A stretch of DNA of 53,127 bases from a virus: positions 1-53,127 of IMG/VR virus record IMGVR_UViG_3300044675_006021. The stretch is one strand, 5' to 3'. The notes under the pieces were generated by a model. That model was not told where the DNA came from, searched no databases, and saw nothing but the letters and a program-made list of their open reading frames with translations. A program made the position numbers and the translations under genes. The first letter of the stretch is position 1, and each line of letters begins with the position of its first letter. This document shows positions 1 to 49,316 of the stretch, in pieces.

Positions 1-132
1 ACTGGCGACGATATCCGTGCGCAGTTCACCGAGTCCAAGAGCATTGAGGATGATGTGAACGAGACGCTGGTGTCGGAAGACGTAGAGGAAAAGGATCCTC
101 TAAAGTACTTCTCCGAAATGGAGAATGATTGA
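1..132 (+). CDS. C-terminal end of an unidentified protein (partial)
   Basis: The reading frame is open from the first base and stops with TGA at 130-132, giving the last 43 residues of a protein that begins outside the window. Fifteen of the 43 residues are Asp or Glu, and the tail ends in an acidic stretch after a PLKYFSEM motif. Codons are rich in C and G at third positions, like gp22, gp23 and the clamp genes here, which suggests a well-expressed core gene. Acidic C-termini are typical of phage DNA-binding proteins such as gp32 or UvsX, but I cannot identify this one. It is followed at once by a terminator shared with the convergent gene. Confidence 0.75.
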   Translation, partial: TGDDIRAQFTESKSIEDDVNETLVSEDVEEKDPLKYFSEMEND

Positions 133-133
133 G

Positions 134-160
134 AAAAGCCCCCGCAAGGGGGCTTTTTTT
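134..160. terminator. Bidirectional intrinsic terminator between convergent genes
   Basis: A 10-bp perfect stem (134-143 with 148-157) is closed by a GCAA tetraloop (144-147). It has an A-run on the left and a T-run on the right, so it can act in both directions. It begins one base after the stop codon of the plus-strand gene. The stop codon of the convergent minus-strand gene (159-161) lies at its edge. Confidence 0.92.
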
Positions 161-590
161 ATCCCCACTTGGGATAGTCTGAAAACTGTTCTTTTCTGGT
201 TTCAAAAATTAAATTATTTTGTTCTAAAGTGGGTTTTTCATCAAAATTTGATTTTGCTTTTGGATCCGTGATCCATTTAGATTGCAAAGAATTTATTGTT
301 TCTGATAAATTTCTTTGAAGTCCACTTATTTGTGTTTCCAGTTTAGATATTTGATCTTCCATGTCTGCCTTTATCCGCAAATCTAAAGCGACTTTTGCGG
401 TTTGGGCAACTGGGGTTTCAGATATAAGAACTTGTGTTGGCTCAAATAAAATTGGTGGTGGTAGCGGTAAATCTGGCTGACTGGTTACAGCAAGCTGTAC
501 TTGTTTTTGTGATTCTGTAATAGCTGCAGAGAATACTTTTTGTTCTGCGGATACATCAATGTTTACTGGTGATTTAGACTCTTCCATCAT
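159..590 (-). CDS. Hypothetical coiled-coil protein at the end of the tail operon
   Basis: A 143-residue protein that I do not recognise. The middle is Pro-rich (PDLPLPPP, about residues 39-46). Residues about 72-105 form heptad-like Leu/Ile spacing (MEDQISKLETQISGLQRNL), so a short coiled coil is likely. It is the last gene of the minus-strand operon. Its ATGATG start overlaps the TGA that ends the predicted frameshift extension of gp26, which implies translational coupling, and its stop lies in the shared terminator. Position directly after a gp26-type chaperone suggests a tail assembly role, but no tape measure signature is visible. Function is unknown. Confidence 0.65.
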   Translation of the reverse strand: MMEESKSPVNIDVSAEQKVFSAAITESQKQVQLAVTSQPDLPLPPPILFEPTQVLISETPVAQTAKVALDLRIKADMEDQISKLETQISGLQRNLSETINSLQSKWITDPKAKSNFDEKPTLEQNNLIFETRKEQFSDYPKWG

Positions 591-790
591 TGAAAGCCTT
601 CATATTGTTTCATCATGCTAGTTTGTTTTTTCTGTTCTTGGTATTCAATCAGTAAGGTGATGTAAATTTCTCGTTCCCACCATATCATGTTATCTATATC
701 ATATAGATTCCAATTAAAATTATTTATTAATGTAAAGTTGGTGGTAAAGTAGTCTTTTAAGTCAAAAAACTTTACCGATAGGTAAAAAAA
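587..790 (-). CDS. Predicted -1 frameshift extension of gp26 (chaperone G/T-like)
   Basis: After the T7 run at 784-790 the -1 frame stays open for 65 codons to a TGA at 589-587. It encodes a distinctive segment with a DIDNMIWWEREIYITLL core followed by a charged helix. The frame has no ATG, GTG or TTG codon before the Met inside that core, so it cannot easily be made as a separate protein. A -1 slip would produce a 282-residue gp26 fusion. This is the organisation of lambda G/GT and P2 E/E', tail assembly chaperones that handle the tape measure protein. In T4 a separate gene 51 follows 26; whether this extension is homologous to gp51 I cannot tell. The fusion is inferred, not demonstrated. 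Confidence 0.72.
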   Translation of the reverse strand, partial: FFYLSVKFFDLKDYFTTNFTLINNFNWNLYDIDNMIWWEREIYITLLIEYQEQKKQTSMMKQYEGFQ

Positions 791-1434
791 GTAAGTAAAC
801 CACTTACCTCCTTTTCACCATCTTTGGTGTTTAACATTACGTAAAGTTCAGGTTGTTTGGCAAAAAACTCTTCAATTTTTGGTAAAACATTCATCGGCAA
901 ATTGTCAATTAAATTTTCTATGTCTTTTGTCACAAATTTATTTAAATAATAAATTTCGTTTTTAACAATTACTTTTTTAATACAGGCTTTGATAAAAACA
1001 TCTTTGTCGAATGATGAAAGTTTTAACAGATCTTTTATTGTAGGAGTTTGAACTACGATATGAGTATCGTCTGTTAATTTTATTTTATCTTCTGATATTG
1101 CATTTCGATGCAATATATCAAATATATAAACTTGAACTTTTTCTTGGTTGTATATCAAGTTTAGACGTTCGTCCACACTCTTTGATCTAATTTGCAAAAA
1201 TAAAAATTCAGCGTCAGCCAAACACAAGTCCAATACGTTTACTCCTTTTGTGTTTGTTTTTAAAAGTTCAACCATTGATTGCAGAGCTAATTTTTTATTT
1301 TCTTCTTGCAATACGATTGATATGTTTTTTGCATCTTTTACTCTAAATGGAGTAAATGATGCTTTTTCATTGGAAAAAGGCAATACAGTTTCATATTGTG
1401 GTAACAGTGCTTCTAAAGAAGGAAACGAGTCCAT
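772..1434 (-). CDS. gp26: Baseplate hub/tail assembly protein gp26 (T4 baseplate family)
   Basis: The 220-residue product resembles the T4 gp26 family (T4 protein 208 residues). It has the N-terminal LP..PF..E..SFTPFRVKDAK-type segment, a central D-AEFLFLQIRSKS motif (about residues 74-85), and a C-terminus ending in GLLTFF, the usual family ending. The family takes part in assembling the central hub of the baseplate. It follows the tube-fold gene in a minus-strand operon, 9 bases downstream, with a GAGG ribosome site before ATG 1434. The last codons contain a slippery T-run that could send a fraction of ribosomes into a 65-residue extension. Family identity rests on motif pattern and context. 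Confidence 0.75.
   Translation of the reverse strand: MDSFPSLEALLPQYETVLPFSNEKASFTPFRVKDAKNISIVLQEENKKLALQSMVELLKTNTKGVNVLDLCLADAEFLFLQIRSKSVDERLNLIYNQEKVQVYIFDILHRNAISEDKIKLTDDTHIVVQTPTIKDLLKLSSFDKDVFIKACIKKVIVKNEIYYLNKFVTKDIENLIDNLPMNVLPKIEEFFAKQPELYVMLNTKDGEKEVSGLLTFFTYR
784..790 (-). other. Candidate -1 ribosomal frameshift site (T7 slippery run)
   Basis: On the minus strand the gp26 frame reads ACT TTT TTT ACC, seven consecutive T residues, four codons before the gp26 stop. Slipping by -1 on the two Phe codons preserves perfect tRNA pairing and enters the 65-codon open frame. A lone homopolymer could also cause polymerase slippage or a sequencing error, but the site sits exactly where G/GT-type genes shift. 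Confidence 0.68.
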
Positions 1435-1443
1435 TTATAATCC

Positions 1444-2013
1444 TCACGATGGGCTGGTAAATGTAAAGTCTCTAAAATTAATCAATACTTGATATGTCGA
1501 ATATTTATTAGCATCGATCATATCCAAAACAATCGGTAATGTCTCTATGGGATATATTTCATAAAATGTAAATGTTCTATTGATATTTCCATTTAAATCT
1601 AAAAGATTGATGTTCATTGAGGCGTCCAAGATGATATCATCATAATAAGAAAGTTGAAACGGAGCACCATAATAGCCTTTTTGTCTACCACCAGAATAAA
1701 TTGTATTAAACCAGGTATCAAAAAAATCGGTAATAAAATTATCGTTGGTGACGGCAAATGTCAGTAAAACGCCCTGTGGAAATTTTTGAGAGCGTGGAAC
1801 GGTTCTTCCGAGACCATAACCAGCTAAATTATCTGCAATTCCGTCAATAGCTCTAGATCCAATCGTAACTGCAAGTGGCTGGAGATCATCATTTGAAATC
1901 TGCGGCAATGTCTCTGGTAGAGACAAAGACATGGAAAATCTGTTTGATCGCTGTAGACCTTTATGGCGATCAAAAAAGTCTTTAATATTGATTATTGAGT
2001 TTGAGTTAGCCAT
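1444..2013 (-). CDS. Tail-tube-fold baseplate protein, gp54/gp19-like
   Basis: A 189-residue protein with the pattern of T4-family tube proteins: an N-terminal RSNRFSMSLSLP strand, a central segment with FPQGVLLTFAVTND followed by W-containing helix FFDTWFNTIY, and a DLNGNINRTFTFYEIYPIE strand pair that parallels the LDLNG motif of the two gp19 copies at 15147-16219. It is therefore probably a tube-like ring at the baseplate-tube junction (gp54 or similar) rather than the main tube. Its start overlaps the end of gp4 by 8 bases, so both are translated together. It lies directly before gp26. Confidence 0.6.
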   Translation of the reverse strand: MANSNSIINIKDFFDRHKGLQRSNRFSMSLSLPETLPQISNDDLQPLAVTIGSRAIDGIADNLAGYGLGRTVPRSQKFPQGVLLTFAVTNDNFITDFFDTWFNTIYSGGRQKGYYGAPFQLSYYDDIILDASMNINLLDLNGNINRTFTFYEIYPIETLPIVLDMIDANKYSTYQVLINFRDFTFTSPS

Positions 2014-2428
2014 TGGTAAATAATTCTTTTTCTGTTATTATTTTAAAAATCATATTGTTTTTTGTGCAATAGTCTTTTGCTGCTTTCCATTTTGCGTTGT
2101 TTACAGCCCAAATCATTCTCTCTCTTTTAGAGGCACTTTCTTTCAATATGGTTTGCTTTTTTGGCTTTACCTCAACCATCCATGTATGCAATCCATCATT
2201 GTTTTTAAACTGGATGATGAAATCCGGATAGTAGGTGTGCATTTTACTGTCGATGGGGCTCATATAAGGAATCCCGATTTCCTCAGATGACCATTTGATT
2301 ATACTGGGGTGCTCATCACAAAATTTGCAAACATTACGTTCCCAAAGAGAACGGCAGACAATTTTGCTCGCATCTCCCACGTATTTTTTATAATTTTTGG
2401 GATTAAATACCGTTTTGTATGCCATCAT
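2006..2428 (-). CDS. gp4: Head completion nuclease gp4 (TnsA/ExK-type)
   Basis: About 140 residues, against 150 in T4. The pattern R-S-x-WE-R (Glu near 29), WSSEEIGIPY, YYPDFI (Asp near 68) and VEVKP (Glu 85, Lys 87; numbering from the second Met) is that of T4 gp4/gp50, which carries a D-ExK restriction-nuclease-like core. The protein acts on packaged heads before tail joining. The gene begins with ATGATG at 2428/2425 just 2 or 5 bases after a late promoter box, with no ribosome binding site. The second ATG lies where a T4-type late transcript should start, so I favour leaderless initiation at 2425. It is the first gene of the minus-strand operon. Confidence 0.88.
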   Translation of the reverse strand: MMAYKTVFNPKNYKKYVGDASKIVCRSLWERNVCKFCDEHPSIIKWSSEEIGIPYMSPIDSKMHTYYPDFIIQFKNNDGLHTWMVEVKPKKQTILKESASKRERMIWAVNNAKWKAAKDYCTKNNMIFKIITEKELFTNG

Positions 2429-2430
2429 AA

Positions 2431-2438
2431 TATTTAGA
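2431..2438 (-). promoter_or_regulatory. T4-type late promoter (TCTAAATA) for the gp4 operon
   Basis: Minus-strand TCTAAATA, one arm of a perfect inverted repeat with 2446-2453. The start codons at 2428 and 2425 lie 2 and 5 bases downstream, so the mRNA would be leaderless or nearly so. Confidence 0.7.
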
Positions 2439-2445
2439 GAAATTG

Positions 2446-2453
2446 TCTAAATA
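2446..2453 (+). promoter_or_regulatory. T4-type late promoter (TCTAAATA) for the baseplate operon
   Basis: Plus-strand TCTAAATA, the other arm of the divergent inverted repeat. It stands 7 bases before the ATG at 2461, with no Shine-Dalgarno sequence between. Confidence 0.7.
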
Positions 2454-2460
2454 TTTACAT

Positions 2461-3276: not shown

Positions 3277-3277
3277 A

Positions 3278-25625: not shown

Positions 25626-26261
25626 ATGATCATTGATTTACGAGAGATACCAGTTGTTTGGATAAATTTAGATTCAGCAACTAAAAATGCCGAATCCATG
25701 GAAGCAAAATTAAAAGAACATGGATTCAAACAAACCTATAGAAAATCTGCTAGGATTATACCAGCACCACCGGGAACAATCCCCAGTAATGCACATTATG
25801 TAGGTTGTGCCCAATCACATATTGATATTTTGGCTGATTCTGCATATGGTTCTCCCCTGCTTATTTTGGAGGACGATGCAGAATTTTCACAAAATTTTCA
25901 ACCTATTATCGACATACCAGATGATTCTGACGGGATCTACCTCGGTGTTTCTAGTGGAAACAGGGGTTATCAGACCAAACAATACAATGACCATTATATG
26001 AGAATTGGTGGTATTTTGGCTACCCATGCAATTCTATATGTAAATGACAAGTTTAAAATGACGATGGCGCAGGCAGCGATCCACTGCATTGAAGACTTAA
26101 AACAACCTTGGGATATGGGCGCAGCCTCAGTCCAGTTTCACACCAGAGTCTATACACCAAACAGACCTTATTTTTACCAATCAGATGAACGTCAGTCGGC
26201 CAATAAATGGCAATATTTTACTGATGTTGGTTTAGAAAATAGAAATTCTCCTTACCTATGA
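25626..26261 (+). CDS. Glycosyltransferase family 25-like
   Basis: 211 residues. GT25 (LPS biosynthesis) pattern: VVWINLDSA near the N-terminus, YRKSARI, GCAQSH (60-65) and LLILEDDAEF (78-87), where the acidic cluster binds the metal and nucleotide sugar. The C-terminal half is less typical. It transfers a sugar, commonly galactose in this family, to a glycan or hydroxylysine-type acceptor; the donor here is unknown. First gene of the island, with a GAGG ribosome site 5' of ATG 25626, and coupled to the next gene by an ATGA overlap. Confidence 0.8.
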   Translation: MIIDLREIPVVWINLDSATKNAESMEAKLKEHGFKQTYRKSARIIPAPPGTIPSNAHYVGCAQSHIDILADSAYGSPLLILEDDAEFSQNFQPIIDIPDDSDGIYLGVSSGNRGYQTKQYNDHYMRIGGILATHAILYVNDKFKMTMAQAAIHCIEDLKQPWDMGAASVQFHTRVYTPNRPYFYQSDERQSANKWQYFTDVGLENRNSPYL

Positions 26262-27172
26262 AAATATTAATAACTGGTGGTTGTGGGTTTATTGGAAGCC
26301 ATTTGGTAGAAGAGTTGGCTAAACAAAATTATAATCTTATTGTTGTAGATGATTTATCTGCCAACAATGATCAATTTTATTTTTTAAAACAAGATAACGT
26401 CGAATACCATAAATTCGATATCGCAGACGAATCTAATTTTGAAATACTAAAAACCATTGCCAAAGATTGTAAATTTGTTTTTCATCTAGCTGCAGAAACT
26501 AGGATTCAAGACACAATAAACAACCCCAAAAAAACAATCCAAACAAATATTTTGGGAACGTTCTACATCTTAGAGTTGTGCATACAGCTTGGCGTAAAAG
26601 GTCTTTTGTTTTCTTCTACTTCTTCGGTATATGGGTTAACAGAAAATACACCGATTACAGAAAATGAAAAAGAATCGTGTTTAAATCCATACGCTTCAAC
26701 CAAATACTCTGCAGAATTGTTGATAAAAAATTATAACAAACTATATGGTGTAAAATCTTGTATCTTTAGATACTTTAATGTATTTGGCGAAAGAGCCCCT
26801 GCAAAAGGTCCGTATTCTTTGGTCACAGGAATATTTTTAAGACAAAAAAATAACGGAGAACCACTTACCATAGTTGGCGACGGAACCCAAGAACGAGATT
26901 TTATTTATGTAAAAGATATTGTAGCTGCAAATATACTAGCTATGTCAAAGTGGGACACTGTTCCAGAAATCAGTGAAGCAAATGTTTTTAACATTGGATC
27001 AGAAAAAGCAATCACAGTAAAACAACTTGCAGACGCAATAAGCAGCAACCAGACACATGTCTCTCTAAGAAAAGGAGAGGCAAGAACTAATTTGTCGTCT
27101 TCCAATAAATTTAAGGTGTTGACTGGGTGGGTTGCAAAAACTGATATTTTAGACTGGATTAAAACTCAATGA
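26258..27172 (+). CDS. NAD-dependent nucleotide-sugar epimerase/dehydratase (SDR)
   Basis: 304 residues. Extended SDR with the Rossmann loop GGCGFIG (7-13), DLSANND after strand 2, SSTSSVYG (119-126) and catalytic YASTK (Tyr145, Lys149). The RYFNVFGERAP motif and IVGDGTQERDFIYVKDIV are typical of UDP-glucose/UDP-GlcNAc 4-epimerases and related enzymes. It probably interconverts UDP-hexoses for the transferases nearby. Substrate cannot be read from sequence. The start overlaps the previous stop (ATGA) and the end overlaps the next start by 4 bases. Confidence 0.87.
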   Translation: MKILITGGCGFIGSHLVEELAKQNYNLIVVDDLSANNDQFYFLKQDNVEYHKFDIADESNFEILKTIAKDCKFVFHLAAETRIQDTINNPKKTIQTNILGTFYILELCIQLGVKGLLFSSTSSVYGLTENTPITENEKESCLNPYASTKYSAELLIKNYNKLYGVKSCIFRYFNVFGERAPAKGPYSLVTGIFLRQKNNGEPLTIVGDGTQERDFIYVKDIVAANILAMSKWDTVPEISEANVFNIGSEKAITVKQLADAISSNQTHVSLRKGEARTNLSSSNKFKVLTGWVAKTDILDWIKTQ

Positions 27173-27957
27173 TAACTTTTAGTAAAATAGGAACATATGG
27201 AAGATTTGGAAACCAAATGTTTCAATATGCAACTTTGTTGGCAATAGCCAAATCAAAAGGTTATGATTATGGAGTTCCATACCAACACAAAAGCTCCAAT
27301 GAATTTTTTGATTTTTGTTTGCCAGAAGCCTTTTGCAATTTATCGGCAAAAGATTCATCTGATATTGTTGTACCGAACAAAGCAATAGAACGTGGATTTC
27401 CATATAGTTCTGGATTCTTTGGTATACAAGACAACACAGATATTTGTGGTTATTTTCAAACAGAAAAATATTTTAAAGATTATAAAAATGATATTTTAAA
27501 AGAATACACTTTTAAAAAAGATATTTTGGAAAAAGCTCATGACATGAGAGACTTAACCAAAAAAGATGCAATATCAATACATTTGCGTCTTGGTGACTAT
27601 TTACATCTTCAACATGTTTATCCAATATGTTCTTTGGAATATTATCAAGAAGCTTTAACAAAATTACCTGATGATATTTTAATATTTGTTTTTAGTGATG
27701 AGCCGGAAAAAGCGGAAACTTATTTTAAATCATTTAATAGGAAGATGGTTTTCTCTGATGGGACAGATAAATATGTTGACATGGCTACAATGAGTTTGTG
27801 TGATTATCATGTTATAGCAAATAGCTCGTTTAGTTGGTGGGGTGCTTGGTTAAGCAACTCTAAAAAAACAATAGCCCCATCTAGATGGTTTGGATCAGCA
27901 CCAAATGCACCTAAAGATTGGCGCGACATATACTGCAAAGAATGGGAAATAATTTAA
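27169..27957 (+). CDS. Glycosyltransferase family 11 (alpha-1,2-fucosyltransferase-like)
   Basis: 262 residues. GT11 signatures: YGRFGNQMFQYA (10-21), GYFQTEKYF (94-102), SIHLRLGDY with the HxRxGDY nucleotide-sugar motif (138-144), FVFSDEPEKA and SSFSWWGAWLS. The family transfers fucose from GDP-fucose in alpha-1,2 linkage, or rhamnose in some members. No GDP-fucose synthesis genes are visible in this window, so the donor would have to come from the host or lie elsewhere. Overlaps both neighbours (ATGA upstream, TAATG downstream), indicating tight co-translation. Confidence 0.88.
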   Translation: MITFSKIGTYGRFGNQMFQYATLLAIAKSKGYDYGVPYQHKSSNEFFDFCLPEAFCNLSAKDSSDIVVPNKAIERGFPYSSGFFGIQDNTDICGYFQTEKYFKDYKNDILKEYTFKKDILEKAHDMRDLTKKDAISIHLRLGDYLHLQHVYPICSLEYYQEALTKLPDDILIFVFSDEPEKAETYFKSFNRKMVFSDGTDKYVDMATMSLCDYHVIANSSFSWWGAWLSNSKKTIAPSRWFGSAPNAPKDWRDIYCKEWEII

Positions 27958-28856
27958 TGATTGTTACTGAAATATATAATGGTCAAGGTTTAGGAAATCA
28001 GTTGGCATGTTATGTCACAACAAGGACAATAGCAGCAGACATGGGTGTACCTTTTGGAATTATGAATCCTCATAAATTTAAATGTCTTGAGTTTATGAAT
28101 TTAGATTTTGGCGAGGATGTAACTGGAGGTGAGGGGCCAGAAGGCGGTCCACCGACAGTTCTTCCAAATGACATTTTATATTACTATAAAGAAAAATATC
28201 ATGTCCTACCAAATGGATCAAACATTACAATTGATGATCCCAATTTAGAAATTGTTCCAGACAATACTAAAATTGATGGAATATTGCAGTCAGAAAATAG
28301 ATTTATACACAGAAAATCTGAAATAAAAGAATGGCTTAAAGTAAATTTAGATAAAGAAAATTACACCTATTCGGATCCAGACATTTGTGTATTAGCGTTT
28401 AGAGGTGGTGAGTATAAGTATGTACCAAATTTCTTTTTGAAACCGAAATATTGGCAGGATGCTGTAAATCATATGTTAAAAATCAACCCAAAGTTTAAAT
28501 TTGTAGTTGTAACCGACGATCCACAGTGTGCAAGACAGTTTTTTCCTGAATCTTTTTATGTTACACATTCTGAAATATGGAATGATTATACTATTATAAA
28601 AAATGCACATTATCTGATTTCATCAAATTCAAGTTTTCCGTATTTTCCAACGCTTACTAGTAATACTTTAAAGTATATTTTAGCGCCCAAATATTGGGGA
28701 CGCCATAATATATCTGATGGCTATTGGGCATGTGGATATAATATTTACAGAGGCTATAATTATATTGATAGAGAAGGTAAAGTTTTTAATTATGACGAAT
28801 GTGTAAAAGAATTTGAAGAATATAAACAAAAAACAAAAATATATAATAATTTGTAA
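27957..28856 (+). CDS. GT11-related glycosyltransferase-like protein
   Basis: 299 residues from ATG 27957, which overlaps the previous TAA. The N-terminal IYNGQGLGNQLACYVTTRTIA parallels the G-R-GNQMF start of family 11. The RGGEYK segment (in place of HxRxGDY) and VVVTDDPQCARQFFP followed by NAHYLISSNSSF repeat the family's C-terminal order. So it is a divergent relative, probably of fucosyltransferase fold. It lacks the classic HxR motif, which suggests a different donor or acceptor. An upstream in-frame ATG at 27918 lies inside the preceding gene and is unlikely to be used. Confidence 0.65.
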   Translation: MIVTEIYNGQGLGNQLACYVTTRTIAADMGVPFGIMNPHKFKCLEFMNLDFGEDVTGGEGPEGGPPTVLPNDILYYYKEKYHVLPNGSNITIDDPNLEIVPDNTKIDGILQSENRFIHRKSEIKEWLKVNLDKENYTYSDPDICVLAFRGGEYKYVPNFFLKPKYWQDAVNHMLKINPKFKFVVVTDDPQCARQFFPESFYVTHSEIWNDYTIIKNAHYLISSNSSFPYFPTLTSNTLKYILAPKYWGRHNISDGYWACGYNIYRGYNYIDREGKVFNYDECVKEFEEYKQKTKIYNNL

Positions 28857-28861
28857 AATTT

Positions 28862-29488
28862 ATGCCATATTCACACGAAGAACATGTAACATATACAAAT
28901 AAAGAATATAGAGATTATTCATATTATCAGTCTTTATTTAATATTTTAAAAAATAAAAATATTCAATCTTACATAGATATTGGTGCAAATGTAGGAGAAG
29001 TTTGTAATATTTATTTTGATACCCTGCCAACGCTTAAAAAAGCATACCTGTTTGAGGTGGAGGTGTCTGCATTTAATTTTTTAAACAACAATATTAAATA
29101 TCCAGAAAAAGTACAAAGTTATAACTTGGCAATTTATTATGGTTCAGATCCACCAAAGTTATTTAAAAATTTTAATACTGGTGGGGGTGTGGTTGCAACT
29201 GCTATAAACAACAACCAATTCACGGAATTTGATACTATAAAAAATTATAGCACTCTTGAGCAATTAAATTTACCTTTAGTTGATTTAATAAAAATGGATA
29301 TAGAGGGTGGAGAATATGATATTATTAAATATTCAAAATTTCTACATTCTGTAAAATACTTAGAAATAGAGTTTCATTATGATAATTTAAATATCGAGGA
29401 GTATATTGCCAATTCTTTTCCAAACCACAATATTATTTTAGCAGAAGATATAAAAGGTAGATTTTTATTTGAAAGTAAGTATTTATGA
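28862..29488 (+). CDS. FkbM-family methyltransferase
   Basis: 208 residues. SAM-binding start YIDIGANVGEV (about 37-47), YLFEVEVSAFNFL, then YNLAIYYG and the FkbM signature LVDLIKMDIEGGEYDIIKY (about 139-157) followed by EIEFHY. FkbM-type enzymes commonly O-methylate sugars in glycans. The gene is very AT-rich and lies 5 bases after the preceding gene. It overlaps the GT17 gene by 4 bases (ATGA), so methylation of an island-made glycan is the likely role. Confidence 0.85.
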   Translation: MPYSHEEHVTYTNKEYRDYSYYQSLFNILKNKNIQSYIDIGANVGEVCNIYFDTLPTLKKAYLFEVEVSAFNFLNNNIKYPEKVQSYNLAIYYGSDPPKLFKNFNTGGGVVATAINNNQFTEFDTIKNYSTLEQLNLPLVDLIKMDIEGGEYDIIKYSKFLHSVKYLEIEFHYDNLNIEEYIANSFPNHNIILAEDIKGRFLFESKYL

Positions 29489-30249
29489 AAATATATGATT
29501 GTTTTTCTTTTTTTGATGAACTGGATTTATTAGAAATTAGATTAAATATTTTAGACCAATATGTCGATAAATTTGTTATAGTTGAAGCAAGAGAAACATT
29601 TAATGGTCATAAAAAACCATTAGTTTTTTCTAAAAATCAAACTCGATACAAAAAATGGGAATCTAAAATAATACATTATGTTGTTGATGAATTTCCAAAT
29701 AATCAGGAAATATACAACAAAGCATTAAACAGCCCAAATACTGGAAATAAAGAACATTGGTGGTTAAGAGAATTTTACCAAAAAGAACATGTAAATATGC
29801 CTTTATCATCTTGCGATGATGATGATATAATTTATGTATCTGATGTTGACGAAATTTGGAATCCGGAATTATCAATTCCATTTGATGATAAAAATGTCTT
29901 TAGACCGATACAGACGGCTTATCCTTTTTTTTTAAATAATAGATCGAATCAAAATTATAATGATTGGACTGGCACCAGAGCTGCAAAATATAAAGTATTT
30001 AAAAAATATGGTGCCAATCATTTTAGAACCGAAAGAGAAGTAAAATCAACACCAATCTTTAACGGTGGATGGCATTTTTCTTGGCTTCATAAAAAAGAAG
30101 ATAAGTGGAATGATAGCCATCCAAACAATAATATTAGATTTGCATCTGTCAAAAATACAAAAATGTGGAAAGACGAATCGGAATTACCTTCATATTTGAA
30201 AGAAAATAAACAAACTTGGATAAACTTATTTTTGGCGGAAAATATATGA
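29485..30249 (+). CDS. Glycosyltransferase family 17-like
   Basis: 254 residues. GT17 pattern from the first residues: MKIYDCFSFFDELDLLEIRL, then VDKFVIVEARETFNG.KKPL, and the DXD-type SDVDEIWNPE segment (about 114-123). The C-terminal GGWHFSWLHKKED also fits. The eukaryotic prototype adds bisecting GlcNAc to N-glycans; bacterial and phage members have unknown acceptors. Overlaps the next gene by 4 bases (ATGA). Confidence 0.85.
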   Translation: MKIYDCFSFFDELDLLEIRLNILDQYVDKFVIVEARETFNGHKKPLVFSKNQTRYKKWESKIIHYVVDEFPNNQEIYNKALNSPNTGNKEHWWLREFYQKEHVNMPLSSCDDDDIIYVSDVDEIWNPELSIPFDDKNVFRPIQTAYPFFLNNRSNQNYNDWTGTRAAKYKVFKKYGANHFRTEREVKSTPIFNGGWHFSWLHKKEDKWNDSHPNNNIRFASVKNTKMWKDESELPSYLKENKQTWINLFLAENI

Positions 30250-30983
30250 AACATATTAAAAATAATTTTTTAGTAGTCAGTGACTATAATTGGTTGCCGG
30301 ATAATTTGGAAGAATCTTGGGTAGAAAAATATTCAGACAATTATCTCATCTATGATAGGTATCATAGGTTTAAAGAAAGCGATAAAGTAAAACATCAAAA
30401 AAATGTTGGACAAAATATTTACGATATTTTTGATTTTATTGTAACACATTACAATAATTTACCAGAAAATATTATTTTTTGTCGTGCTTGTTTTTTAAAC
30501 CCAAAAGATGATGGAATTGTTCGGTATGATAAAAATAATAGAAGAATTTCTACTGGAAATTGTAGTGAAGAATATTTTTTAAAAAATGCAAACAATACCC
30601 ATTTAACCGAATTACAAGATTTTTTTACAGAATCGTGGAGATTTAATGGGTGGTCAAATAAAATAGGTCCAAATAATAGCTATTTGGAATTAAATCAAAA
30701 TTGGTATTTTGCAAGTTATAAGGGTAAATACTATAACGACATAAATGTATTTTTTAATGATATATACGAAAACCCCCCGCATCAACAATATTTGAGATTT
30801 TCTCCTGGTGGTAACTATATTGTCCCCAAAACAAATATTTTAAAATATAACATTAATTTTTATGAAAAAATTAAAAATATTTTGTCTTGGGATGTCATAG
30901 TTGGAGAAGCACATATGATTGAAAGAGCTTTATACACTATTTTTTTATGTGATTATGAAATAAAGAAAGAATTTAAACCATGA
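30246..30983 (+). CDS. Glycan-island protein of unknown function (DUF3431-like)
   Basis: 245 residues from ATG 30246 (ATGA overlap); an in-frame ATG at 30216 lies within the previous gene. Two features recall the DUF3431 family seen in polysaccharide loci: GQNIYDIFDFIVTHYNNLPENIIFCRA (an N-Y-N-x-LP-x-x-I-F core) and later LRFSPGGNYIVPKTNILKY, close to the P-G-A-x-F-x-V-x-x-x-x-I style. It is probably a glycosyltransferase-like or glycan-processing protein. No catalytic residues can be named. The gene is extremely AT-rich. Confidence 0.6.
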   Translation: MKHIKNNFLVVSDYNWLPDNLEESWVEKYSDNYLIYDRYHRFKESDKVKHQKNVGQNIYDIFDFIVTHYNNLPENIIFCRACFLNPKDDGIVRYDKNNRRISTGNCSEEYFLKNANNTHLTELQDFFTESWRFNGWSNKIGPNNSYLELNQNWYFASYKGKYYNDINVFFNDIYENPPHQQYLRFSPGGNYIVPKTNILKYNINFYEKIKNILSWDVIVGEAHMIERALYTIFLCDYEIKKEFKP

Positions 30984-31537
30984 GTATTCCAATATATCTT
31001 AGAAATGTTCCGCCTCCTGCTGAAACATTTGATCATGGATCATTGTTGCAGTTTTTATTATCTTATATCAAACCAAATGTATATCTTGAATTGGGAGTCC
31101 GAGAAGGAGTTACATTTACAAAATGTGCAACCCATGCCAAAAAAGCTATTGGAGTTGATATCTCCCCATGTCCTTTTTCTTTAAAAGAAAACATGGAATA
31201 TCATCAATGCACAACAGATATTTTTTTTACTAAATTAGATAAAAATGTAATATTTGACGCGGTTTTTATTGATGCGGACCACTCACATCAGCAATCTTTA
31301 AAAGATTTTTTAAATGTAAAAGATCATATTATAGATGATGGATTTGTTTTTTTTCATGATACTTATCCATATGATAAGTCAATGATGGATCCGGGATTAT
31401 GTAACGATGTATATAAAACGGCTCTATATATTAAAGAGCATTTTATAGAAGAATTTGAAGTTATTACTTTACCTTTTAATCCAGGTTTAAGTATACTTAA
31501 AAAGATGCCAAGAAAGAAACAGTTGCTTTATTTATGA
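30980..31537 (+). CDS. Class I SAM-dependent methyltransferase (Methyltransf_24 type)
   Basis: 185 residues. SAM-binding motif I is VYLELGVREGVTF, motif II KKAIGVDISP, and FDAVFIDADHSHQQSLKDF carries the metal-coordinating Asp pair typical of this group. The GFVFFHDTYP strand follows. Members methylate sugars or small phenols; in a glycan island an O-methyl sugar is the likely product. Overlaps both flanking genes by 4 bases. Confidence 0.85.
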   Translation: MSIPIYLRNVPPPAETFDHGSLLQFLLSYIKPNVYLELGVREGVTFTKCATHAKKAIGVDISPCPFSLKENMEYHQCTTDIFFTKLDKNVIFDAVFIDADHSHQQSLKDFLNVKDHIIDDGFVFFHDTYPYDKSMMDPGLCNDVYKTALYIKEHFIEEFEVITLPFNPGLSILKKMPRKKQLLYL

Positions 31538-32463
31538 AGAATGAAAAAATTTTTATAACTGGTGGGGCCGGATATCTTGGTCAGAATTTGATAAAACAGT
31601 TTTATGATACAAATCAAATTACAGTTTATTCAAGAGATGAAGCAAAACACTATTACATAAAAAAACAATTTCCAAAAGTAAATTTTGTTGTTGGTGACAT
31701 ACGTAATAGAGATCTTCTTCTTAGAAAATCAAAAAACCATACTGTAGGGATTTTTGCCGCTTCATTGAAGCAAATCGATGCCTGCACGGAAAATTATGAA
31801 GAGGCTTCAAAAATTATTATAGATGGGGCATTCAATTCTCGTATATGTGCTGAAGAAAATAATTTTAAATCAGCTTGTTTTATTTCTTCTGATAAAAGTC
31901 GAGCAGCTACAACCATTTATGGGGCAATGAAGTATGTTGCGGGAGAAGGCTTTATTAGCGGACCTTCTAATTGTAATCTTACAACAGCCATATATGGTAA
32001 TGTAATGAATTCTACCGGATCCATTATTCCTCTAATATGGAAATATATAAATCAAAAAACAAAACTTCAACTGTATAGCACAGAAATGACACGATTTTTA
32101 TTGGACATAGAAGATGGTATCGATCTTATATGCAAAGCTTTAACATATTCTGGTTGCAATGTGATTATGAATGCCAAATCGTTTAAAATTTTAGATTTAT
32201 TTGAAATATATAAAGAAAAATATAATTTAGAATTTGAAGTTAGTTCTCCAAGAACTGGAGAAAAAATTCATGAAATCATGGCCGCATCAGAAGAAATTAG
32301 ACGAATGGAATATATAGAAAAAGACAATATTTTTCTTTTGCATCCAAATAAAAATTTTAATACGGTAGTTTTTAAAAATTCTGAATTTTCGTCAAAAGAC
32401 TATTGTATTTCAAAAGAAGAATTATTTAACTTTTTAAACAAAAGGAATTTTTATCAGCCATGA
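31534..32463 (+). CDS. Nucleotide-sugar 4,6-dehydratase/epimerase (CapE/PseB/WbjB-like)
   Basis: 309 residues. SDR with GGAGYLG (10-16), acidic GDIRNRD after strand 3, AASLKQ at the place of the AALKH motif of inverting 4,6-dehydratases, SSDK (118-121) and the catalytic YGAMK (Tyr129, Lys133). The C-terminal SPRTGEKIHEIM is also typical of the CapE/WbjB/PseB group, which acts on UDP-GlcNAc to start L-FucNAc, pseudaminic acid or rhamnose-type sugars. The following RmlD/CapF-like reductase fits the next step. Exact product unknown. Confidence 0.83.
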   Translation: MKNEKIFITGGAGYLGQNLIKQFYDTNQITVYSRDEAKHYYIKKQFPKVNFVVGDIRNRDLLLRKSKNHTVGIFAASLKQIDACTENYEEASKIIIDGAFNSRICAEENNFKSACFISSDKSRAATTIYGAMKYVAGEGFISGPSNCNLTTAIYGNVMNSTGSIIPLIWKYINQKTKLQLYSTEMTRFLLDIEDGIDLICKALTYSGCNVIMNAKSFKILDLFEIYKEKYNLEFEVSSPRTGEKIHEIMAASEEIRRMEYIEKDNIFLLHPNKNFNTVVFKNSEFSSKDYCISKEELFNFLNKRNFYQP

Positions 32464-33260
32464 GCGTTTACATTTTTGGTTCCAACGGGATGTTGGGTAC
32501 GTATTTGACAACTTATTTAAAAAATTTTTATAATACAATTCCACTAACAAGACAGCATTTTAATATTTCGGAAACTAATTTTTCCGAGTATGACTCTTAT
32601 TTTAAGGACAAGCTCAATTCCGATGACATTATAATCAATGCTGCCGGAATTATTAAACAAAAAAGTTTTACAGCAAAAGATTTAATTTCTGTAAACTCTT
32701 TATTTCCTCATATATTGGCAGAACTAAAAAACAAATATAATTGTAATGTTATCCATGTAACAACTGATTGTGTTTTTAGTGGTCTGTATGGAAATTATAA
32801 TGAAAATAATCTTCACGATTGCACCGATGATTACGGAAAAAGTAAATCATTGGGTGAGAGTTCTTTATTAACAAATATTAGAACTTCTATAATTGGTGAA
32901 GAAAATCAAGGTAAAAAATCTCTTTTAGAATGGTGTAGATCCAATAAAAATAAACAAGTTTATGGATTTTTAAATCATACTTGGAATGGTGTAAGTTGTT
33001 TAGAATTAGCTAAAATTATACAAAATATAATATCAAATAATTTATACTGGAATGGAACCAAGCACATATTTTCCCCAAATGTTGTAAACAAATATGAATT
33101 AGTTAAGTGTATTTCGGATACTTACGACTTAAATTTAAGCATTGAAACAAAAAATACAGAAAAACATTGTTACAGAACCTTATCAACGATATATAACCAT
33201 AATTGGACTCAAAAAACCGTTCAAGAGCAAGTACAGGATCTGTATAATTATAAAATATAA
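32460..33260 (+). CDS. RmlD/CapF-like nucleotide-sugar 4-reductase
   Basis: 266 residues. Rossmann motif GSNGMLG (7-13), INAAGIIKQK, VTTDCVFSG (100-108) and catalytic YGKSK (Tyr125, Lys129) match the RmlD substrate-binding family (dTDP-4-dehydrorhamnose reductase and WbjC/CapF reductases). It would reduce the 4-keto sugar made by a dehydratase such as the neighbour at 31534 or the RmlB-like enzyme at 33977. The start overlaps the previous stop by 4 bases. It ends a long co-translated block; the next gene has its own promoter. Confidence 0.85.
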   Translation: MSVYIFGSNGMLGTYLTTYLKNFYNTIPLTRQHFNISETNFSEYDSYFKDKLNSDDIIINAAGIIKQKSFTAKDLISVNSLFPHILAELKNKYNCNVIHVTTDCVFSGLYGNYNENNLHDCTDDYGKSKSLGESSLLTNIRTSIIGEENQGKKSLLEWCRSNKNKQVYGFLNHTWNGVSCLELAKIIQNIISNNLYWNGTKHIFSPNVVNKYELVKCISDTYDLNLSIETKNTEKHCYRTLSTIYNHNWTQKTVQEQVQDLYNYKI

Positions 33261-33262
33261 GC

Positions 33263-33290
33263 TTGACTTTTCTGTAAAAAAAGATATACT
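33263..33290 (+). promoter_or_regulatory. Sigma70-like promoter with start codon 5 bases after the -10 box
   Basis: TTGACT (33263-33268), 16-base spacer, TATACT (33285-33290). The ATG at 33296 lies where transcription should begin, so the first gene would be leaderless. Five bases separate -10 and ATG. Confidence 0.7.
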
Positions 33291-33295
33291 TAGAT

Positions 33296-33976
33296 ATGCA
33301 AATTTCTTTAGCGGTACCTGTTTATGAATGCCATGGGATGGGATGGCTATATTTGAGTGAACTCTTGAATAGTGTCGCTAAACAGACTTATAAAAATATA
33401 GAGATCGTCATCAGCGATCAAAGTACTGATGATAAAATTAAAATTTTATGTGATGCGTATAAAAATTATTTAAATATAAAATACGTAACAGGACATCACC
33501 TATTACGCAGTAATTCGCCCAATGCGAATAATGCAATTAAAAATTGCTCATCAAAATATATTAAAATTCTTTTTCAAGACGATTTTTTTGTAGATGAAAT
33601 GGCATTACAAAAAATAGTTGCAGCGTTTGAAAGCGATGCAATGTGGATTGTCTCCGGTTGTGTTCACTGTAGCAATATTCACAGCCTTTATAGGCCCTTT
33701 GTGCCATATTATAATGATAATATGCTGGAAGGAAATAATACAATAAGTTCACCCAGCGTATTGTCTGTGCAAGAAAAAGAACTTTTTGATGAAAACTTAA
33801 TAATGTTAATGGACTGTGAGATGTATTATAGACTCCATAATAAATATGGAGAACCGTATATTATACGAGATTTATTAGTGTGCAATAGGCAGCATAAAAA
33901 CCAGTTGCAAAATTTAAATCAAGATAAATTGTCTGAAGAAATCGATTATTGTAAAAACAAATATAAAGGAGCTTAA
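33296..33976 (+). CDS. Glycosyltransferase family 2
   Basis: 226 residues. GT2 (GT-A fold): ISLAVPVYE at residues 3-11, SVAKQTYKNIEIVISDQSTD, then ILFQDDFFVDE with the acidic metal site. The start at ATG 33296 is fixed by the conserved first strand, which begins at residue 3, so no later start is possible. That makes the tight promoter spacing meaningful. It is followed directly by the RmlB-like gene, whose AAGGAG ribosome site lies in the end of this gene. Confidence 0.87.
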   Translation: MQISLAVPVYECHGMGWLYLSELLNSVAKQTYKNIEIVISDQSTDDKIKILCDAYKNYLNIKYVTGHHLLRSNSPNANNAIKNCSSKYIKILFQDDFFVDEMALQKIVAAFESDAMWIVSGCVHCSNIHSLYRPFVPYYNDNMLEGNNTISSPSVLSVQEKELFDENLIMLMDCEMYYRLHNKYGEPYIIRDLLVCNRQHKNQLQNLNQDKLSEEIDYCKNKYKGA

Positions 33977-34975
33977 ATGCGAAATCGTTTTTTAATTACT
34001 GGTGGTTGTGGTTTTATCGGTCATCACATGGTAGAATTTTTGTTGGAAAATGATGACTGTGATATTGTCGTATTAGATAGACTTGATGTTTCTGGTAATC
34101 TAAACCGTTTAACAGAATTGCCTGTTTGGGAAAAGGAACATAAAAGAGTAACATTTGTTTGGCACGATATGAAGGCTGAAATTCATAACAATGAAGTTTT
34201 GACATCAATGATTGGGCCGATAAATACGATTCTCCACATAGGAGCATCTTCTCACGTTGATCGTTCAATTTCAGATCCATTGAGTTTTGTGATGGACAAT
34301 GTTGTTGGAACCTGCAACGTATTAAATTATGCCAGAACACAAAACAATTTAACTAATTTTGTTTATTTTTCTACTGATGAAATTTTTGGTCCAGCACCAG
34401 AGGGTGTGAATTATAAAGAAAATGATCGTTATAATTCTGGAAACCCATATGCAGCAGCAAAAGCTGGCGGCGAAGAGTTGGCAGTATCGTTTCACAATAC
34501 CTACAAATTGCCGATTATGGTAACTCACTGCATGAATGTATTTGGTGAAAGACAACATCCAGAAAAATTTATTCCACTTTGCATTAAAAATAGCTTAATT
34601 GGAAAAAAGATTTTTATTCATGCAAATAAAAACCTAACAAAAGCTGGAAGCCGGTATTACATTCACGCTAAAAATGTCTGCCATGCAGTTAACTTTTTGC
34701 TAAAAAATGGAACTCCCGGAGAAAAATATAATATTGTTGGAGAAAAAGAAGTAGATAATCTCACACTTGCCAAGATGATTTCTTCATGCGTGGGCAAGGA
34801 GTTGGATTGTGAACTTGTAGATTTCCACAGCAGCAGACCGGGCCATGATTTGAGATATGCTTTGGATGGTTCTAAAATGGCAAATTTGGGGTGGGTTCCA
34901 CAAGATAATTTGGAACAATCTTTGGCAAAGTTGGTAGATTGGTCAATAAAAAACCCAAAGTGGATTGGACTGTAA
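33977..34975 (+). CDS. rmlB: dTDP-glucose 4,6-dehydratase-like (RmlB)
   Basis: 332 residues. Extended SDR with GGCGFIG (9-15), HIGASSHVDRSISDP (the RmlB AAxSHVDRS motif), STDEIFG with catalytic TDE (133-135) and YAAAK (Tyr158, Lys162). RmlB converts dTDP-glucose to the 4-keto-6-deoxy intermediate for rhamnose and other deoxysugars. A possible RmlD partner lies at 32460. No RmlA or RmlC is seen, so the host may supply dTDP-glucose and an epimerase, or the final sugar is not rhamnose. A strong AAGGAG ribosome site precedes the ATG. Confidence 0.88.
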   Translation: MRNRFLITGGCGFIGHHMVEFLLENDDCDIVVLDRLDVSGNLNRLTELPVWEKEHKRVTFVWHDMKAEIHNNEVLTSMIGPINTILHIGASSHVDRSISDPLSFVMDNVVGTCNVLNYARTQNNLTNFVYFSTDEIFGPAPEGVNYKENDRYNSGNPYAAAKAGGEELAVSFHNTYKLPIMVTHCMNVFGERQHPEKFIPLCIKNSLIGKKIFIHANKNLTKAGSRYYIHAKNVCHAVNFLLKNGTPGEKYNIVGEKEVDNLTLAKMISSCVGKELDCELVDFHSSRPGHDLRYALDGSKMANLGWVPQDNLEQSLAKLVDWSIKNPKWIGL

Positions 34976-34976
34976 A

Positions 34977-35564
34977 ATGAACTTAACAGACATATACAAT
35001 TACTTGGTAAAATCTCCATCAGATATAAATGAACATCTTCCAGTATTAAAAGAATATGCGGAAAAATGTGAACATGTTACAGAAATGGGCGTAAGATACG
35101 TAGTATCTACTTTTGCATTGGTATTGGCTAAACCAAAAAATTTAATATCCATTGACCTATTTCATCCTAGCCACTACGGTGACAATGGTCGTTTGTACAT
35201 AATACAAAATTATGCTAAGGAAAATAATATTAATTTTAATTTTAAACTAGGTGATACTCTTAAAATTGATATCGAACCCACCGATCTACTGTTTATAGAT
35301 ACCCTTCATGTCTATGGTCAGTTAAAGGCTGAACTACACAAACACTCGAAAAATGTTAAAAAATATTTAATTTTTCATGATACAACAACCTTTGCCGAAA
35401 AAGACGAAGGTCACTATTATCAAACTCCCAATTTAGATAATTCTAAGGTGGGATTGTGGCCAGCCATTGAAGAGTTTTTAGAAGATAACAAAGACTGGGA
35501 ATTATTAGAAAGAAAAACTAATAATAACGGTTTAACCATTCTTCATAAAAAATCTTCCACATAA
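34977..35564 (+). CDS. Class I methyltransferase-like protein, end of glycan island
   Basis: 195 residues from ATG 34977; a TTG 12 bases upstream lies within the previous gene. Motifs: VTEMGVRYVVSTFAL as a SAM loop variant, NLISIDLFHPSH, DLLFIDTLHVYGQLKAEL and KYLIFHDTTTF. This is the same order as in the methyltransferase at 30980, of which it is probably a distant paralogue. Its stop codon lies in the loop of a hairpin that can hide the ribosome site of gp55, so its translation may control access to gp55. Confidence 0.75.
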   Translation: MNLTDIYNYLVKSPSDINEHLPVLKEYAEKCEHVTEMGVRYVVSTFALVLAKPKNLISIDLFHPSHYGDNGRLYIIQNYAKENNINFNFKLGDTLKIDIEPTDLLFIDTLHVYGQLKAELHKHSKNVKKYLIFHDTTTFAEKDEGHYYQTPNLDNSKVGLWPAIEEFLEDNKDWELLERKTNNNGLTILHKKSST

Positions 35565-43558: not shown

Positions 43559-46500
43559 ATGGCAAGCACCAGCAGAACAATAAATGTAGAAGTAAACTCA
43601 ACACCTTATGCCGTTCAAGGTGCACGGGGAAATACCGGACCAACGGGACCAATTGGCCCAACAGGTCCCAGTTTCCCGCTGATGAATTTTACAGGAACTG
43701 TTGTTGTAAGTTACGGTTCCGCTTCAACGGTTACAGTAGATTCTTCTTATGGCGCCAATGCGTTTCAAATCGGAACTGTAATTAAAGTAAATTTTCCAGT
43801 TCTTGGAACGTTTCTTTATGGTGAAATTACAGCTTACGTCGGAACATCTCTGACTTTTAGACAAGTTAGTGGTACTGCAGTGGCTGCTTCTACGGCAACA
43901 TCTGGAACCATTGTTTTTGGTGCAACCTCACCAGATTTTGACACAGCTGTTCAAGTTCAGGTATCACAGGTTGCCAATGTAGGAACTTCGTATTACATTC
44001 CATTAGTTAGTGCATGTGGTGCCCAGTCCATATTTATTGATGCCAATGTCCTTCCATTAAGTTATATACCAAGTACATCATCCTTGCTATGTAATAATAT
44101 TGCTCTTGGAAATAAAAACGTTGGATTTGAATTTCTTAAAATTACAACAACTGAGATAAATTCAAATGATTTCTTTTATTTTATCTCGCAAAATGGTTTG
44201 TATTGCCAAGATAAAAATTTAGTTCAAATGGGAGACGTGACGGTTGAAAACTATGGAACCGTCATGGAAGTTTTGGGTGCAACATCTAATAACTTAGTTA
44301 AAATAAGAAATCAAGATGCTTCTGATACAACTCTAGCAATAAACAGAGATAGCGCTGATCCAAGAACCCATGCTCTTGAAATTAATAAGAGTGATGGAAA
44401 AGCCATAAAATTAATTTATAACGATGTAACAGACGGTGCACCTGATAATGTTCTACTAGAAGTAGGTAGCACGGGTTCATTTATAATTAACCCATCTGGA
44501 AGCTTAACCACAATTACAGGCGATCTATCTGTTTTGGGTGGCTATACCGGAAATCTTGTCACAAGCTTGAATAGTTTGGTTGGTGCTTTAAATCTAAGTG
44601 CTGGTCCAAATATTGGTATTACATCTGATAATGGTATAATTACTATTTCTGCGGTTGGGGGTCTAACTAGCGGAGTTTATGAATTAAATGGATTAAGTGG
44701 TGCTATAAATCTTGTTGCAGGAATGAATATCGGAATTACAGTTTCCGGTAATAATATTGAAATTTTATCAACAGGTGGCACTGGCAGTACTGGAAATACG
44801 GGTCCTACAGGACCACAGGGTCCACAAGGTAACACGGGCGCAACTGGTGAACAGGGCCCGCAAGGAAACACCGGTGCAACTGGTGAACAAGGTCCACAGG
44901 GGAACACAGGTGCAACTGGCAACCAAGGTCCTCAAGGCAATACCGGTAATACTGGGGCAACTGGCGCACCCGGAAATACTGGAGCCACTGGTGATCAAGG
45001 ACCACAGGGAAACACTGGTGCAACTGGTAATCAGGGACCACAGGGAAATACTGGTAATACTGGAGCAACTGGTTCACAAGGACCTCAAGGTAATACTGGT
45101 GCTACTGGTAATCCCGGACCACAAGGCCCCACTGGTGCAACTGGTTTAGCTGGAGATATCTTTTCTTCTACATCGACAACAGGAATTACTTTAGCTTCTA
45201 TAACTACAGGAAGTCAAGTTTCCTTAAATGTCGGTCCAGATTTAGCATATAGTCGTGTGCAGGATGTCTTAGTTGCTGCTGGTCTATCACAGTTTTTTAC
45301 AGCTACTGTAATAACATATGGCGGTGAAACTTTAACAGTACAAGTTTCTGGCGTTTGTGGATCAAACTTCTTTAATTCTTGGGATGTTAACCTTGCAGGT
45401 GCAGTTGGTCAGGCTGGACCACAGGGGCCACAAGGCAACACTGGTAATGCTGGTATACAAGGAAATACCGGTAATACTGGTGCTACAGGTGGAACAGGCC
45501 CACAAGGAAATACCGGTAATACAGGTAATACGGGTCCTACAGGAAATACTGGAAATACCGGGCTCCAAGGAAATACTGGCGCATCATATCTTGCACGAAC
45601 AACTACGCTTCAAGGCACAATAAGTGAACTCGTTAATCAAAATTTTGCTGGACCTTTCACTACGGCTAGATTCTTACCATATTCCGTTGGCGATAATGTC
45701 TTATGTTCTTCCATTTCAAACCCCACGAGGTGGATCATAGCGCCAGTAAGCGCATACAACCCGACAAATGGATCAATGACTATTTCTCCAATTTTGAGAA
45801 ATAGCGGCCCAGACGGAACTCTAATTACTAGCTGGTCTATAAATTTAACAGGCATACCAGGAATTACTGGTGCAACTGGTGCAACTGGTGCACAAGGCAA
45901 TACAGGCAATACCGGAAATACTGGACCGACCGGTCCACGCGGTAATACGGGAAATGATGGATTAAGTCCAACAAATTTCGTAGAATCTTTTAATGGATTA
46001 ACTGGTAGTGTATTTGGTGTTTCTTCAATCAATGGAGCAACGGGATCATTTCAAGTTGTAACATCTGTAAATGGTGCAACAGGAGCAGTCGAAAATGTTG
46101 CTAGACTAAATGTATCTCAAGACTTTACGTCTCAGCCTACATTTAGAAATGCGTTTACAATCCAAGCTCCATCTCCTGCGCCACTACTATCTGGTGGTCT
46201 CACTGCAAGCATAAACTTTAATACTCTATATGCACCAACACTGCAATATTACAATGAACCTTTTCAAAGTATTATTGTTCCTGCCGGAGGCGGTGCCGTA
46301 AATGTTGATCTAGCCGTTGCTCAGGTATTCTCGTTGCTTTTAAATGATAACATTACACAATTTAATATTCTGAATACTCCCCAAACAAACGACAGAACAA
46401 TTGGATTTACATTGATATTGCAGATGAATACTCCAAATAGAACTGTAAACTGGGGATCAAAAGTTCGCTGGCCAAATGGAATTGCACCTACTCTGAGCAG

Positions 46501-46594
46501 TCTACAAAAAATTGACGTGTTCTCATTCTTGACTATCGACAAGGGTGTTTCTTGGTTGGCATTTGTCGGTGGTCAAAACTTTGCAGGATCATAA
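43559..46594 (+). CDS. Large collagen-like tail fibre protein 1
   Basis: 1011 residues. Modular: a short GPTG collagen start (about 24-37), a globular beta domain (37-120), a unique domain (120-310), two beta-prism-like repeats of the [17 protein letters not shown] type (330-405), then long Gly-X-Y tracts at about 406-531, 618-675 and 769-802 rich in GNT, GAT and GPQ triplets. Globular modules (about 535-615 and 680-768) separate them. The C-terminal 200 residues ([20 protein letters not shown], then [24 protein letters not shown]) look like a trimerisation/tip domain. No receptor can be named. It lies 1 base after the previous gene. Confidence 0.85.
44776..45152 (+). repeat. Gly-X-Y (collagen-like) repeat tract
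   Basis: About 125 codons of uninterrupted G-x-x triplets, dominated by GNT, GAT, GPQ and GxQ. At DNA level units such as CCACAGGGAAACACTGGTGC recur with synonymous changes, which suggests expansion followed by drift. Confidence 0.9.
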
Positions 46595-46601
46595 AAACTG
46601 A

Positions 46602-46609
46602 TATAAATA
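46602..46609 (+). promoter_or_regulatory. T4-type late promoter (TATAAATA)
   Basis: A perfect TATAAATA begins 8 bases after the stop of fibre 1 and ends 9 bases before ATG 46619. There is no Shine-Dalgarno sequence. Confidence 0.78.
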
Positions 46610-46618
46610 TATTACTCC

Positions 46619-49303: not shown

Positions 49304-49306
49304 ATA
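49299..49306 (+). promoter_or_regulatory. T4-type late promoter (CCTAAATA)
   Basis: CCTAAATA contains the TAA stop of fibre 2 (49301-49303) and ends 10 bases before ATG 49317. There is no Shine-Dalgarno sequence. Confidence 0.7.
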
Positions 49307-49316
49307 GTATAAACTA

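Follow-up and report, generated by a model that had tools for sequence, protein, structure and literature searches.

A probable programmed -1 frameshift joins the gp26 and gp51 domains of T4-like phages

The window, by which we mean the whole stretch of viral DNA analysed here (53,127 nucleotides; IMG/VR record IMGVR_UViG_3300044675_006021), carries a gp26-type gene on its minus strand, the end of which overlaps a gp51 domain in the -1 frame. The features of the locus, each with the evidence for it, are as follows.

772..1434, minus strand: gp26-type gene of 220 aa, the putative short form (TAC-N, counterpart of lambda gpG); PF12322 and phrog_150 matches, AF2 model.
784..790, minus strand: slippery heptamer T_TTT_TTT, in X_XXY_YYZ phase in the gp26 frame; seen in the sequence and kept in 93/93 loci.
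587..784, minus strand: -1 extension of 65 codons plus TGA, the gp51 domain (TAC-C, counterpart of lambda T); phrog_634 match and alignment.
772..774, minus strand: TAA stop of the unshifted frame; seen in the sequence.
806..812, minus strand: SD-like AGGAGGT, 15 nt upstream of the heptamer, a candidate upstream stimulator; GAGGT invariance and anti-SD pairing.
743..776, minus strand: stem-loop of GGTAAAGT (776..769) and ACTTTACC (750..743), a candidate downstream stimulator; fold test and folding peak.
159..590, minus strand: next ORF, 143 aa; its ATGATG (590..585) shares bases with the TGA that closes the -1 frame.

Read on the minus strand, the 3' end of gp26 is CTT ACT TTT TTT ACC TAT CGG TAA, with the run of seven Ts at T790-T784 and three sense codons between this run and the stop. 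From T784, the -1 frame is open for 65 codons (translation YLSVKFFDLKDYFTTNFTLINNFNWNLYDIDNMIWWEREIYITLLIEYQEQKKQTSMMKQYEGFQ) and closes with a TGA at 589..587. An initial annotation of this DNA had reported that gp26 ends with ACT TTT TTT ACC shortly before a stop and that the 65-codon frame runs to the ATGATG of the next gene, and both readings are correct, the stop being the TAA after ACC TAT CGG. The same holds for its description of a WWEREIYITLL domain that is not preceded by a start codon: the earliest ATG, GTG or TTG in the frame is ATG 688 at codon 33, immediately ahead of the IWWEREIY motif, and no SD-like sequence was found ahead of this ATG. The 57 gene-like ORFs of the window contain 24 in-frame T_TTT_TTN heptamers. 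The -1 frame following the heptamer is open for 65 codons at the gp26 site versus 0-21 codons at the other 23, and the gp26 heptamer is the only one located within 10 codons of a stop.

The gp26 protein matches PF12322 (T4_baseplate) over residues 12-217 with an E-value of 2e-24 and 86.9 bits (curated cut-off 24.5), and phrog_150 (baseplate hub) with an E-value of 7e-26 in a profile search. The family to which the -1 frame belongs, suggested in the initial annotation to be that of gp51, could be identified through a match of residues 8-60 to phrog_634 (gp51, baseplate hub assembly catalyst; E 5.8e-16). Residues L9, F17 and E37 are invariant in an alignment of 46 gp51 extensions (alignment A4). 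For structural comparisons, the gp26 and gp51 parts were folded apart, from the unshifted translations. The AF2 model of gp26 has a pLDDT of 88, and among the matches listed the HK97 tail assembly chaperone 2OB9 is the only PDB match with a probability above 0.11 (probability 0.38, rmsd 3.8 Å, 62 columns); at an E-value of 1.3 this match is weak and no proof of an HK97-chaperone fold for gp26. A PDB sequence search with the gp26 profile gave no match, and a Foldseek search with the gp51 model returned zero matches. The gp51 profile found coiled-helix proteins only in the PDB (HIV gp41, E 0.14-0.98), which we dismissed as chance-level matches. A blastn search with positions 1-3600 of the window yielded a single match of 72 bp.

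In the clade of the window, gp51 is followed by an ORF of 140-143 aa and then, in the opposite orientation, by a gp32-like gene. The ORF is 140 aa long in locus L005 and its C-terminus matches that of the 143-aa counterpart in the window. Positions 1..132 of the window (plus strand) code for the C-terminus of an ssDNA-binding protein that is probably gp32-like, and near-identical residues close a 285-aa ORF at L005:6303-7160. In this clade, a tape-measure gene appears not to lie next to gp51, which counts against the chaperone reading. According to the annotations of HTVC008M and phiM12, the chaperone genes of these phages are located near the tape-measure gene, with one small ORF between. Elsewhere, the window codes for a head-closure protein (phrog_218; 2006..2428, minus strand) in which a TnsA-like endonuclease domain is recognised (PF08722, E 1e-22), a block of genes resembling glycosyltransferases, sugar-nucleotide epimerases and methyltransferases (25626..35564, plus strand) and three large ORFs, probably for tail fibres, that contain collagen-like GxY repeats (43559..51524, plus strand).

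We scanned viral contigs as well as phage genomes and obtained 93 gp26 loci, that of the window among them; 54 of the 93 are at <70% identity. All 93 contain T_TTT_TT(T/C/A) in X_XXY_YYZ phase, 0-3 codons ahead of the gp26 stop and with gp51 in the -1 frame. The initial annotation had asked whether the T7 run is conserved in relatives: the slippery heptamer is, whereas the full T7 is found in 35 loci (TTTTTTT), the others having TTTTTTC (55) or TTTTTTA (3). The X codon is AGT, TCT, GAT, AAT, ACT, CGT or GCT, so that the encoded residue varies (S/T/N/D/R/A) while the final T is constant in 93/93. Under gp26 codon usage, the chance of such a constant T in the 54 loci at <70% identity would be about 10^-18.6 if these were independent, which as relatives they are not, and only 2 of 39 other Phe-Phe sites within gp26 are slippery. 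Constraint on the last base of the X codon, and on the TTT codon, goes beyond what the amino acids need. The -1 extension has a length of 58-69 codons in all 54 loci at <70% identity. GAT or AGT TTT TTC with gp51 in the -1 frame is also present in further isolates, namely Aeh1, Aeromonas 65, two KVP40-like vibriophages and Stenotrophomonas, Variovorax and Vibrio phages. Judged from these sequences, the slip between gp26 and gp51 appears to be the standard arrangement across most T4-like phages.

The heptamer is flanked by two candidate stimulators. In a sliding fold test of 83 loci, a single peak was seen at 0 to +6 nt past the heptamer (mean z -2.0), compared with a background of z about 0 away from the slip; 46-47% of the loci reach z < -2 at the peak, and many loci show no obvious single stem. 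The stem-loop of the window, which begins 7 nt downstream of the heptamer, has an MFE of -10.6 kcal/mol and a z of -3.7, and 1 of 200 shuffles was as stable. The 5' arm GGTAAAGT is kept throughout the window's clade, and its partner strand lies at either of two places: at 34-41 nt in the window, L002 and L005, and around 44-53 nt in L003 and L017-L019. A stem model common to all relatives was rejected, as the stem geometry differs by clade, and covariation was for this reason counted in one clade only. In this cyanophage group of 16 sequences, stem pairs are formed in 95.6% of cells versus 22-48% when slid, and one stem pair occurs as UA, AU and GC.

On the upstream side, an SD-like GAG(G) is located 10-16 nt ahead of the slip and is kept beyond codon usage. 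Its GAGGT is invariant in 11 loci of the window's clade, and anti-SD pairing 10-18 nt upstream of the slip exceeds that of synonymous-codon shuffles, with z down to -9.8. At codons -4 and -6 the usual GAA gives way to GAG, which accounts for 23 of 31 and 16 of 18 Glu codons, respectively, versus 21% gene-wide. In E. coli dnaX, an SD-like element about 10 nt upstream and a stem-loop about 5 nt downstream flank the slippery heptamer. The window has the same three-part cassette, but the heptamer is A_AAA_AAG in dnaX and T_TTT_TTN in gp26, the SD-like spacing in gp26 is 10 or 16 nt depending on the clade, and in gp26 the shift would lengthen the product. From its sequence signature, the combination of SD-like element, heptamer and stem-loop is that of a predicted dnaX-style programmed -1 frameshift.

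We consider it highly probable that gp26 and its -1 frame constitute one tail-assembly-chaperone gene expressed by a stimulated -1 slip; that ribosomes slip here, how often they do so and that the products act as chaperones we infer from sequence and by analogy. The majority of ribosomes would stop at 772 and produce the 220-residue short form. A minority would slip back one base at T_TTT_TTT (790..784), aided by the upstream SD-like AGGAGG and the stem-loop 7 nt downstream, resulting in a fusion of about 282 residues with the gp51 domain. If the system works like lambda gpG/gpGT, the tape-measure protein would be coated by the short form, and the long form, being rarer, would bring in subunits of the tube or baseplate. 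In the lambda system, ribosomes that slip by -1 close to the end of the first ORF append a C-terminal domain, and the N-domain is common to both forms (PMC5009743). The window would also add a C-terminal domain to a shared N-domain by a -1 slip, although this N-domain is larger (220 aa) and homology was undetected here. The lambda slip takes place at a G-run site, that of the window at T_TTT_TTT. With P2 E/E' the window would share the use of a -1 frameshift chaperone design in a contractile-tail phage (PMC5009743); the protein families differ from gp26/gp51, and the two are likened by design. Both proposals of the initial annotation, a programmed -1 frameshift and the analogy with G/GT and E/E', gain support from the slippery heptamer kept in 93/93 loci, the homologous -1 extension with its uniform length of 58-69 codons, the many relatives without a usable start, and the stem-loop and SD-like element that flank the slip.

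If gp51 were instead a separate gene with its own start, coupled at the gp26 stop, the T run would merely reflect a conserved Phe-Phe pair. This would fit with gp51 being a separate ORF in many databases, with an ATG that lies three codons past the slip in some loci, and with the Pseudomonas phage Cygsa01 (L098:1792-1982). Here, gp26 ends with AGC ATT TTC ACC TAA TG; the perfect heptamer is gone and the ATG of gp51 overlaps the gp26 stop (TAATG), a possible switch from frameshifting to an independent start, which indicates that the second part can start on its own in a distant relative. The initial annotation had regarded relatives with such a start as evidence against a frameshift, and Cygsa01 is a relative of this kind. 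The first 12 codons of the extension are free of starts in 24 of the 54 loci, an SD-like sequence is absent ahead of the first possible start in 53 of the 54, and in the window the first start comes only at codon 33. Moreover, T4-type gp26 codes for Phe-Phe as GAG TTC TTT, and a separate gene does not account for the constraint on the X-codon third base and the TTT codon. We thus regard a separate gene as very improbable.

The frame could also change if RNA polymerase slipped on the T run during transcription, but this seems less probable still. There are seven consecutive Ts in the window and T7 occurs in many relatives, but in 58 of the 93 loci a C or A ends the run after T6, and six Ts are short for polymerase slippage; the X_XXY_YYZ phase, the SD-like element and the stem suit ribosomal slippage. 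Homopolymers are also error-prone, and a miscounted T run, with a single merged frame as the true sequence, was the other refutation put forward in the initial annotation. We give it a negligible chance, since the arrangement recurs in contigs of independent origin and in the genomes of isolates: the frame relation is identical in all 93 loci, which come from many metagenomes and isolates and include T6C versions, and the unshifted stop is 0-3 codons away in every one of them.

A different solution is found in T4-type phages. In T4, genes 26 and 51 are located on opposite strands, and residues 1-201 of gp51 form a complete PF12322 domain (E 4e-52), to which the gp51 extension is added (phrog_634, residues 147-246; hhalign E 2e-5 against alignment A4), which makes T4 gp26 and gp51 short and long paralogues. 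The initial annotation was hence right that T4 51 is a separate gene, but this gene is a gp26 paralogue with an added extension. T4 gp26 ends with GAG TTC TTT, so that Phe-Phe is retained and the heptamer lost. We read six T4-type gp26 genes, and the heptamer with gp51 in the -1 frame is also absent from the other five (CC31, AM101, Serratia 4S, phiAS4 and an RB49-like phage). In these five phages, as in RB43, the gp51 protein belongs to PF12322, the extension having been checked in T4 gp51 only. In the record of the Acinetobacter phage AM101, gp26 and gp51 are annotated as tape measure protein assembly chaperones. Going by the sequences, T4 appears to encode the short and the long form in different genes, in contrast to the frameshift of most relatives, and the loss of the slip together with a separate gp26-like gp51 suggests that duplication replaces frameshifting.

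The main idea, namely that T4-like chaperones are made by poly-T frameshifting or from two genes, is known since 2022, as far as it is relayed in two later articles. Vladimirov, Gautam and Davidson (2022, Virology 566:9-15), as described in PMC10885494, reported that in some T4-like phages a short gene and a long fusion gene take the place of a frameshift, and PMC12846349 attributes to the same work poly-T slippery sequences in T4-like TAC-N genes. The initial annotation had put forward the fused gp26-gp51 as a notable link between T4-like and other tail chaperones, a link that this work, as these articles present it, had already made. The window shares the PF12322 N-domain and the gp51 C-domain with T4-like gp26/gp51 chaperones, and its gp26 belongs to a divergent branch, about 25-32% identical to the cyanophage forms. 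A literature search that covered titles and abstracts listed no mention of an SD-like element or stem at this slip. The breadth of conservation may add to the 2022 work, as may the conserved flanking stimulators, which may be novel.

The gp51 protein has been reported as missing in Aeh1 and as having about 20% of the T4 length in cyanophages (PMC3037559), which can be explained by gp51 being the -1 frame of gp26. Similarly, gp51 is unannotated or cut short in the records of Aeh1 (L106), Aeromonas 65 (L107) and P-SSM7 (L111), because the -1 frame has no start codon. Our results support the view that the gp51 described as "tiny", cut short or "missing" in many T4-like genomes is the tail that a frameshift adds to gp26. 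On balance, we favour the idea that the slip cassette (SD-like element, T_TTT_TTN and stem-loop) is selected across T4-like phages, even though the stem partner and the SD spacing have moved, that it is lost where gp26 has been duplicated into a full-length gp51, and that frameshifting and duplication are interchangeable means of setting the ratio of short to long form. The gp26/gp51 pair thereby offers a clean natural comparison of recoding and gene duplication as ways to set a protein ratio in tail assembly.
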